DNA of 50,182 nt from Bacteroidota bacterium (GTDB taxonomy: Bacteria; Bacteroidota; Bacteroidia; B-17B0; Aurantibacillaceae): positions 1 through 50,182 of the forward strand of contig CANLAV010000004.1 in NCBI GenBank assembly GCA_947487905.1. Reading direction: 5' to 3'. The notes under the pieces are model-generated. The model saw nothing but the letters and a program-made list of their open reading frames with translations, was not told where the DNA came from and ran no database searches. Shown here piece by piece: positions 24,376 to 27,786 of the stretch (within the stretch, counting starts at the first letter, position 1; the number at the start of each line of letters is the position of its first letter). A program made the position numbers and the translations under genes.

Positions 24376-25308
24376 ATGATTAGAAAAATTGTGTTTAGTA
24401 TTTTGGTTTGTTTTTCTTTTTCTATGTTGGCACAGGAAAATTTATTAAAGGTAGATATACTGACTTATTACACTCCAAATACCGAGTATGTTTTTCCAAC
24501 GTCTAAGATTGTTAACTCGCAAACAACAGAAACCATTAGGAAAAATTTTTTAGCAGTTAATTTATCGCAGCGCTTTGAAAACGCATATCATTCAACTGTT
24601 AAAAACCCTTTAAATTCAGCAGCACATAATTTTTTCGGACTTGGAAGTATTAGTGACGTTCGTTTTAGTTTGGATTATGGATTAACCAACTATTTGACAT
24701 TAGGGATTGGAAGAAGTAAGTTCAAAGAGATGTTTGATGGTACTTTTAAATGGAGAATGCTTACTCAAACAACGGCTAATCGACCCGTTTCGATTACTTT
24801 TTATGGAAACATAGGTTACTCAACAATGAGCACAGAAAAGCTTTATGCAGGCGTTGTTCTAGTTAAAAAAAACGAATTTCATAGATTGCAATATTGCAGC
24901 CAATTGTTAATCGCCCGAAAAATAAACGAAAAAATTTCTTTACAAATGATGCCAACCTATGTGTATCGAAATTTTATAAAGTTAGATGTTAACACCAAGA
25001 ATTTTGCAGAAGATAAAAATGGATTGTTTTCAATGGGGTTTGCCGCACGCTTAAAACTATCAAAGAAAGCTACTTTCGTTTTCGATTATTTTTATAATGC
25101 ATCAGCATTTCAAAATAAAAATCCTTTAGGCTATTATAATGCTTTTGGTGCAGGCGTGGAATTAATTGTAAGAGGAAGGGTTTTTAATTTTAATTTTTCA
25201 AATAGCGACGCTATTTTAGAAAGTAATTTTATGCCTTACACAAGAAGTACATGGCTAAGAGGTCAATTTAAATTAGGGTTTAATGTTTCAAAATGGTTTA
25301 TCTTATAA
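24376..25308 (+). CDS. DUF5777-family outer membrane beta-barrel protein
   Basis: From the ATG at 24376 the protein has 310 residues; a TTG at 24364 would add four. A signal peptide ends near SMLAQ (about residue 20). The rest is rich in alternating strands, with the family marks NLSQRFE, NFFGLGSISDVRFSLDYGLT and LGIGRSKFKEMFDG. Members are predicted outer membrane barrels of unknown function in Bacteroidota. It runs directly into the DUF4271 gene with overlap or a two-base gap. Confidence 0.72.
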   Translation: MIRKIVFSILVCFSFSMLAQENLLKVDILTYYTPNTEYVFPTSKIVNSQTTETIRKNFLAVNLSQRFENAYHSTVKNPLNSAAHNFFGLGSISDVRFSLDYGLTNYLTLGIGRSKFKEMFDGTFKWRMLTQTTANRPVSITFYGNIGYSTMSTEKLYAGVVLVKKNEFHRLQYCSQLLIARKINEKISLQMMPTYVYRNFIKLDVNTKNFAEDKNGLFSMGFAARLKLSKKATFVFDYFYNASAFQNKNPLGYYNAFGAGVELIVRGRVFNFNFSNSDAILESNFMPYTRSTWLRGQFKLGFNVSKWFIL

Positions 25309-25310
25309 AT

Positions 25311-26090
25311 ATGATTAGCCCAGTTATAGACAAAACGGTAATTTCTCTTGCTTTAAACGATTCTACCAATGTTGTTCCATCCATTTTTTCAGATAATTTG
25401 CTAAGACCTACATCCGGATTGGAACTAGCGTATAACACGAGTCATTATCTAATTTGGCCAACAATTATTCTTTTTGTTTCATTTGTGCTTATGGTTGCTA
25501 TAAAAGTATCAGATGCGAAAAAAATAAGCGATGTGTTATCAGCAGTATTTAGTTTAACCATAGCTAAGCAGTTATATAGAGAAGAATATGGCTTAAGCAA
25601 AAGAAGCGCTATTTTTTTTAGTGTTAACTATATTTTATTAATTCCTCTTTTAATATTTGAGTTCAACCGGTTTTTTAATTTTGGTTTGTTTGAAGCAAAT
25701 TCAGAGTTCTTACAGTATTTGTTTTTGTTAATTATAACACTAACTGTTTATAGTGTTAAGCACTTATTTATTAATTTTCTATCGGGGATATTAAAGGCCC
25801 AAAATTTAGCCAAAGAGTATTGGTTTACCGTTTTAGTATTTTCACATGCGTTTATCATTTTATTGTTTCCAATCGTTCTTATTTTGCTTTTTTCAAGCGT
25901 TCAAACAGGATATTTAATTTATGTCGCCTTATCATTATTTATTGGATTTTACATCCTCCGTTTGGTTCGTCTTTTAGTATTAATGTATTCAGAACAAAAC
26001 GTTGCTATTGTTTATATTATTATGTACCTTTGTGCCTTAGAAATTTTACCTTTTTTAGTATTAATAAAATTTTTATTTATAAATTTTTAA
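25311..26090 (+). CDS. DUF4271 integral membrane protein
   Basis: The product of about 259 residues (265 if an overlapping ATG at 25293 is used) has about six membrane segments from residue 50 on. A central TAKQLYREEYGLSK region and SVKHLFINFLSG lie between them. It belongs to the DUF4271 family, confined to Bacteroidota and usually found just upstream of hemD, as it is here with a 14-base gap. The function is unknown; a link to haem synthesis is guessed only from this pairing. The start at 25311, just after the previous stop codon, is the more economical. Confidence 0.75.
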   Translation: MISPVIDKTVISLALNDSTNVVPSIFSDNLLRPTSGLELAYNTSHYLIWPTIILFVSFVLMVAIKVSDAKKISDVLSAVFSLTIAKQLYREEYGLSKRSAIFFSVNYILLIPLLIFEFNRFFNFGLFEANSEFLQYLFLLIITLTVYSVKHLFINFLSGILKAQNLAKEYWFTVLVFSHAFIILLFPIVLILLFSSVQTGYLIYVALSLFIGFYILRLVRLLVLMYSEQNVAIVYIIMYLCALEILPFLVLIKFLFINF

Positions 26091-26104: not shown

Positions 26105-27352
26105 ATGGCGATAAAGAAAAAAACATCAGGTAAGGCAGTGATTGCTAAATCAAAAAAAGGAAGTGGTGCTAAAAAAAGCAAAAAAACACTGCTTGTAAAA
26201 AAGAAAGTAACGGCAAAAAAAGCCATTGTTTTAAAAAAGACAGGTGTTAAAAAACAAACGCCGATAAAAAAGGTAGTGGTTAAAAAGTTGACTACAAAGG
26301 CTAAGCCTATAGTAAAAAATAAAAAAGTTTCTGTTAAAAAATTAGCACCAAAGAAAGCGGTTAAAAAAAGCCTATCAAAAAAGCCTATTAACAAACCAGT
26401 AAAAAAAGCTGTTGCAAAATCAGTTAAACCAACCAACCAAGAACTTAAAACAAAGGTTGAAAAGAAAACTAGTGTTGAAAAAAAGACGCCTGCACAGGTT
26501 GCAGTAAATGTTGAAAAAACACTTAAGGTTGGCGTAAAAACACGTAAGCAGTTAGTGGCAGAGCCCCCTCAACCTGTTATCGAGGTTTCGAATCATCCTA
26601 AAACAAAAGTTAAGACTATTTTAATATCACAGCCTAAGCCTGAAAACGATAAAAATCCCTATTATGATTTATCTAAAAAATATAATTTAATAGAAACTTT
26701 TAGACAATTTATAAAAATAGAAGGATTGCCAGTAAAAGATTTCAGAAATCAACGCGTAGATATTTTAGAACATAAAGCCGTTATTTTAACGAGTAGATTA
26801 GCTGTTGATCATTATTTTAGAATGTGTAACGAAATGAGAGTTACGGTTCCCGAATCAATGAAATATTTTTGTATAAATGAAGCCACGGCCTATTATTTAC
26901 AAAAATACATACAGTATCGTAAACGTAAAATCTTTTTCGGACATCAAACAATTAGAGATTTAGTTGACGTCATAAGAAAAAATAAAGAAGAAAAGTTTTT
27001 ATTGCCAGCTGCAGACGTTCATAAAGAACAGATTTGTGATTTCTTAGATGCTATTGGGATTAAATACACTAAGGCCATTATGTATAGAACAGTAAGCGCT
27101 AATTTATCAGACATCAAGAATTTAAATGATTTCGATATGTTAGTGTTTTTTACATCGGCAGGTATAAATTCATTGAAACAAAATTTTCCTATTTTTAAAC
27201 AAGGCAGTACTCGTATAGCTTGTTTCGGAGCCGCAACAGCAAATGAATTAAAAAAACACGGTTACCGTTTAGACGTATACGCTCCTAATCCAAAGAATCC
27301 AAGTATGTCTGGTGCAATTGACGAATACATTAAAGAAGCAAATAAACGTTAA
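26105..27352 (+). CDS. hemD: Uroporphyrinogen-III synthase with lysine-rich N-terminal tail
   Basis: Residues 168-415 form a Bacteroidota-type uroporphyrinogen-III synthase: VKTILISQPKPEN, FRNQRVDILEHKAVILTSR, VPESMKYFCINEA, RKRKIFFG and FFTSAGINSL. The enzyme closes and inverts ring D of the linear tetrapyrrole in haem synthesis. Residues 1-167 are an added tail. In the first 110 residues I count 42 lysines and no Asp or Glu, in KKA/KKPV-type repeats like histone H1 or AlgP. The catalytic domain alone is the usual length. An in-frame GTG at 26555 (residue 151) could start a tail-free form. The gene sits between DUF4271 and rnpA. Confidence 0.88.
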   Translation: MAIKKKTSGKAVIAKSKKGSGAKKSKKTLLVKKKVTAKKAIVLKKTGVKKQTPIKKVVVKKLTTKAKPIVKNKKVSVKKLAPKKAVKKSLSKKPINKPVKKAVAKSVKPTNQELKTKVEKKTSVEKKTPAQVAVNVEKTLKVGVKTRKQLVAEPPQPVIEVSNHPKTKVKTILISQPKPENDKNPYYDLSKKYNLIETFRQFIKIEGLPVKDFRNQRVDILEHKAVILTSRLAVDHYFRMCNEMRVTVPESMKYFCINEATAYYLQKYIQYRKRKIFFGHQTIRDLVDVIRKNKEEKFLLPAADVHKEQICDFLDAIGIKYTKAIMYRTVSANLSDIKNLNDFDMLVFFTSAGINSLKQNFPIFKQGSTRIACFGAATANELKKHGYRLDVYAPNPKNPSMSGAIDEYIKEANKR

Positions 27353-27399: not shown

Positions 27400-27786
27400 A
27401 TGTTTTCTTTTTCTAAAATAGAGCGCTTGTGTAGTAAAAAGTCGATAGAACATTTGTTTGCTAAAGGCGAATCAAAAACGCAGTTTCCTATAAAGCTTAT
27501 TTACACACTTTCAGAATTCGAAAGCCCATTTCCAGTTCGCGCTATGTTTGTAGTTCCGAAAAAAAAACATAAAAGAGCAAATCAAAGAAATATTTTAAAG
27601 CGTCGCATGCGAGAAATATATCGCTTAAACAAACACGACTTATATCAAGCGGTTACAAATAGTAAGTATGATATTATGTTTGTATACTTGAGTAATGAGG
27701 TTTGTGATTATGAAGCAATCAAGGTTAAAATGATTTTTTTATTAAATCAATTGAAAGAAAAAATAAAACCAGTAGAGGTTATTTAA
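27400..27786 (+). CDS. rnpA: Ribonuclease P protein component
   Basis: The 128-residue basic protein has the RNR signature at about residues 59-72 (RANQRNILKRRMRE) and the FSFSKIERLCSKK start typical of Bacteroidota RnpA. It assists the catalytic RNA in trimming tRNA 5' ends. rpmH and yidD, common neighbours, are absent here. The last eight bases overlap the 3' end of a converging T9SS gene, so no terminator separates them. Confidence 0.93.
   Translation: MFSFSKIERLCSKKSIEHLFAKGESKTQFPIKLIYTLSEFESPFPVRAMFVVPKKKHKRANQRNILKRRMREIYRLNKHDLYQAVTNSKYDIMFVYLSNEVCDYEAIKVKMIFLLNQLKEKIKPVEVI

Follow-up and report, generated by a model that had tools for sequence, protein, structure and literature searches.

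The stretch of DNA analysed here (the window; 50,182 nt of contig CANLAV010000004.1) carries at positions 26105-27352, on the forward strand, a single 415-aa ORF with an ATG start, in which a lysine-rich tail, a linker and a HEM4 domain of the HemD (uroporphyrinogen-III synthase) fold follow one another. No further upstream sequence can be included in the ORF, since an in-frame TAA lies directly 5′ of ATG 26105. The tail (residues 1-110; 26105-26434, forward strand) contains 42 Lys, no Arg and no Asp or Glu, and the first acidic residue of the protein is residue 113. The linker (residues 111-165; 26435-26599, forward strand) holds a segment conserved among relatives of the same family, GVKT(K/R)KQLV..PQPVIEVSN.P, and the homologous core begins at about residue 166 (26600-27349, forward strand). 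Reading this 415-aa ORF confirms what had first been noticed at the locus, a stretch of 110 residues with 42 Lys and no Asp or Glu fused to a HemD-fold domain. The gene is flanked upstream by a gene for a DUF4271 membrane protein (25293-26090, forward strand; PF14093, 98.7 bits) and downstream by rnpA, encoding the RNase P protein (27400-27786, forward strand; PF00825, 55.7 bits).

The tail is no chance feature. In a survey of 1428 ORFs that start with Met and encode 80 aa or more, spread over 1.45 Mb (59% of the genome from which the window comes), its peak net charge over 60 aa (+25) ranked second, and only one ORF, an adenylate kinase with a tail of its own (+28), was higher. Within the window's family, coded f1 (f60, f61 and similar codes stand for other families), the protein was found in 82 out of 87 genomes, with every one of the 10 genera represented. 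Nearly all complete frames span ~345-440 aa, short ones being partial or located at contig edges, and the relatives that were read carry an N-terminal tail of ~90-175 aa in which Lys makes up ~25-36% and acidic residues are scarce (mostly 2-9%). A fused tail kept in this way through the family rules out both an assembly error and a separate tail gene. Tail sequences share a mean identity of 39% in f1 vs 77% for the core, and dN/dS in close pairs is 0.10-0.46 for the tail vs 0.01-0.03 for the core. Such synonymous-dominated divergence indicates that the tail is translated and constrained, although more loosely than the core.

It had also been proposed that a second start at GTG 26555 might give two protein forms from one gene. 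An in-frame GTG is indeed present at that position, but of 14 relatives just 4 have GTG as the aligned codon, the others using a different codon for valine, and no Met was found between tail and core in the family relatives read. We therefore regard two forms as extremely improbable.

The core is recognized by PF02602 (HEM4) over residues 216-401 with 111.5 bits, above the 27.5-bit cut-off. An AlphaFold2 model of the core built from 63 sequences reached a pLDDT of 92.9 (the single-sequence model, at 44.9, was unusable) and its 13 best Foldseek matches in the PDB were all HemD, headed by 1jr2 (E 2e-12). A single-sequence PDB search returned no matches; the profile search gave 1jr2 and 3p9z. The claim of a complete catalytic HemD domain thus stands as far as the predicted fold is concerned, whereas catalysis is a prediction. 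By profile alignment and our own position count, the family consensus keeps the positions aligned with Thr103, Tyr168, Ser197 and Thr228 of human UROS, which we take to be pocket residues, so that uroporphyrinogen-III synthase activity may survive in the core. Against the NCBIfam HemD equivalog model the window protein scores 34.2 bits (cut-off 275), and the HemC-HemD protein of the same genome also falls below HemD cut-offs. A basic motif, RKRK (core residues 107-110; 26918-26929, forward strand), is invariant in 14 diverse members under two alignments. In seven f72 genomes of ~2 Mb (G315, G343, G366, G387, G407, G424 and G441) the core has diverged strongly (E ~1e-30, with no Pfam HEM4 match), perhaps reflecting a relaxed or changed function.

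Gene neighbourhood gives a second mark of this protein. The DUF4271 gene lies immediately upstream of the HEM4 core gene in all 167 loci with enough flanking sequence, the ORFs themselves having been inspected in six. The window protein carries both this upstream partner and the core RKRK, the two marks of what we define here as the DUF4271-linked Bacteroidia HEM4 group. The rnpA neighbour was discarded as an invariant partner: its adjacency varies within the class, an RnpA-like ORF being seen in 111 of 194 loci by a motif scan that may under-count. One locus of the Bacteroidia DUF4271-HEM4 type occurs in a record titled Glaciecola amylolytica, a gammaproteobacterium (L105, CP034120.1); this record is probably mislabelled or contaminated.

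Compared with HemD/UROS proteins (PF02602; 1jr2, 3p9z), the window-type core shares the two-domain fold and several pocket positions; it differs in its invariant RKRK, in its place beside DUF4271, in being kept in genomes without HemC and, here, in its lysine tail. The label of haem enzyme given to it at first is borne out by the fold but not by the genome, whose dedicated haem HemD is a separate 525-aa HemC-HemD fusion on another contig (G000:C11). Of 197 Bacteroidia genomes with a completeness of 95% or more, 195 have the window-type core and 128 have HemC. Both genomes devoid of the core (G318 and G328) are HemC-positive, hence all 69 genomes that lack HemC keep it. HemC makes hydroxymethylbilane, the sole substrate of HemD; these 69 genomes cannot make that substrate and yet retain the core. 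A synthase should co-occur only with a source of hydroxymethylbilane, a pattern that the 69 core-bearing, HemC-less genomes out of 197 do not follow. Among the 21 genomes that have both proteins, core sequences are on average 62% identical in pairwise comparison, as against 44% for the HemD part of the HemC-HemD fusion and 61% for HemC. Outside Bacteroidia, our phylum sample returned weak matches only (≤26% identity). The window protein is a member of a distinct, Bacteroidia-wide HEM4 group and a paralog set apart from the haem HemD of its own genome.

These data bear on the possibility that the protein acts as a second HemD, with uroporphyrinogen-III synthase activity and a tail that does no more than localise or stabilise a haem enzyme. 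Besides the fold and the kept pocket positions, such a role would agree with 11 HemC-positive genomes from six families (f9, f10, f41, f59, f70 and f77) in which the window-type protein is the only HEM4 found, bearing in mind that a divergent HemD may escape the Pfam scan (the one beside hemC in G431 was seen by profile only). In four genomes, moreover, hemC sits inside the DUF4271-HEM4 pair, in the order DUF4271-hemC-HEM4 (L313 and L314 in f41; L315 and L316 in f77). Together, sole HEM4 proteins and this gene order suggest that some lineages may use the protein as their HemD, and they soften the notion of a purely non-haem protein. As a general account, however, a second HemD has to face the HemC-HemD fusion of the window's own genome, retention in every HemC-less genome and a core better conserved than the true HemD; we find it unlikely. 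We favour a conserved non-haem role in a protein able to keep or regain synthase activity.

Although the family relatives read carry tails of the same type, most Bacteroidia members of the HEM4 group are tailless, so the tail belongs to part of the class. N-terminal lysine tails occur in f1, in one f60 genus (g132) and, in short form, in one f3 member (L052), while C-terminal ones occur in f61 (two groups), f74, f45 and f62. The f60 N-tail (L061-L064) has an apparent TTG start followed by residues LKAKNILV, similar to the first residues of the core itself (KVKSILV); judging from this resemblance, LKAKNILV looks like a relict of the core start, as if the tail had been inserted just after the original start. 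A ~200-aa C-terminal extension in f70 (L319), of mixed charge and then rich in Lys, Thr and Asn, is possibly another separate gain. On core trees, tail state needs 7-8 changes, which may include losses (L018, with a weakly charged tail, was scored as tailed). Counting strongly supported branches alone, at least two changes are needed for N-tails and at least three for C-tails. Monophyly of the C-tailed sequences is rejected (p-AU 1e-45), and that of the N-tailed sequences of f1 and f60 stays compatible with the data (p-AU 0.32). Lysine tails on the HEM4 core arose more than once, at either end.

Similar lysine tails are found on other proteins in the part of the window's genome that was surveyed (59%): at the C-end of adenylate kinase and of topoisomerase I and at the N-end of RsfS. 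The adenylate kinase (core match at G000:C6:33289-33849, reverse strand; L233 and L301, with relatives L302-L312) has a lysine-rich C-tail of ~200 aa that is family-wide in f1, where 43 of the 45 genomes with a match had frames of 308-496 aa and all 12 frames read were lysine-rich. Topoisomerase I (L294, G000:C64) carries a lysine-repeat C-tail and RsfS (L271, G000:C41) a lysine-rich N-tail. The partner of TopA is DNA and that of RsfS, the ribosome silencing factor, is the ribosome; adenylate kinase being tailed as well, such tails extend beyond enzymes that act on nucleic acid. In f60, f61 and f74 genomes with HEM4 tails, those adenylate kinase frames that were listed have a normal length; HEM4 thus acquired its tail in these families with no tail on adenylate kinase. 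On these grounds we rejected the idea that HEM4 tails came with a general tendency to tail proteins.

The same observations help to weigh whether the tail could be a low-complexity run of lysines that expanded more or less neutrally in a lineage with AT-rich DNA. Its looser constraint, the 39% mean identity within the family and the presence of several proteins so tailed in one genome would fit. Against this, tail dN/dS stays below 0.5, a tail with few acidic residues is kept across 10 genera, families without a tailed adenylate kinase have HEM4 tails at different ends, and tails of this kind occur on only a handful of the 1428 ORFs. We give largely neutral expansion little credence.

Another candidate partner for the tail is the membrane. 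Polycations bind acidic lipids, and the invariant DUF4271 linkage is consistent with a membrane-anchored two-protein module in which the tail would bind an acidic lipid or the DUF4271 protein rather than nucleic acid. Most members, however, are tailless and DUF4271-linked all the same, and the other tailed proteins of the genome include TopA and RsfS; it is improbable to us that the tail serves such a module. This judgement concerns the tail: for the core, a membrane-linked role with DUF4271 is our leading idea.

Among known systems, histone H1-like nucleoproteins (HC2, PF07382; NF038053) resemble the tail in being Lys/Ala-rich, in having almost no acidic residues and in their KKA/VKK repeat texture. 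The likeness is one of composition only: the tail alone scores 15.1 bits (E 0.026) against HC2, where the curated cut-off is 40, and 6.7 bits against NF038053, where it is 80, and unlike those proteins it sits on a protein of enzyme fold. Lysine-repeat C-terminal tails on topoisomerase I, both in actinobacteria and in the window's genome, likewise equip a housekeeping protein with a disordered polycationic extension; TopA, in contrast, itself acts on DNA, and we know of no nucleic-acid role for the HEM4 core. Searches of the literature for DUF4271, for histone-like tails in Bacteroidetes, for HemD with a lysine tail and for Tyr168 of UROS returned nothing relevant.

A window-type protein has very probably been listed before. 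PG0202, annotated 'HemD, putative', was reported as a protein specific to Bacteroidetes (Gupta 2007, PMC1887533) and we infer that it is an orthologue of the window-type core; like the latter it is a phylum-specific HEM4-domain protein, reported with no tail and with its HemD label unquestioned. Porphyromonas gingivalis, described as a haem auxotroph, retains homologues of HemD, HemN, HemG and HemH only (PMC13227078). In a ppGpp-free double mutant of this species, PGN_0310 ('uroporphyrinogen-III synthase') is up 1.9-fold and is listed with ribosomal-protein genes (PMC6994654). This rise is suggestive at most, because orthology is presumed and metabolic genes are found in that list too.

Tails at either end and retention without the haem pathway suggest a protein tied to DNA, RNA or another negatively charged partner for a non-haem job. 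Our main reading, to which we assign a probability of roughly 0.5, is that the window encodes a HEM4 protein with a conserved non-haem job, adjacent to DUF4271 and tethered through the charge of its tail to a polyanionic partner, with nucleic acid or ribosomes as the likeliest candidates; both the tethering and the non-haem function are inferred. The N-tail of f1, 100-175 residues long in this reading, would be disordered and polycationic and would bind its polyanion by charge, holding the HEM4 core near nucleic acid or ribosomes. The core would carry out its conserved non-haem job, with the HemC-HemD fusion covering haem synthesis in the window's genome. Somewhat more tentatively, we suggest that the near-universal 'HemD' of Bacteroidia could be a moonlighting factor whose core has an as yet unrecognised function, exerted with DUF4271 and possibly with nucleic acid or ribosomes, and that several lineages have independently added H1-like tails to it at one end or the other.

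Across Bacteroidia, including haem auxotrophs of the gut and mouth, this gene is habitually assigned to haem biosynthesis; our analysis suggests another conserved function. If true, pathway reconstructions would change and the lone 'HemD' of haem-auxotrophic bacteria would be explained. The H1-like tails at opposite ends of one protein, along with those of adenylate kinase, TopA and RsfS, point to a tethering strategy for housekeeping proteins.
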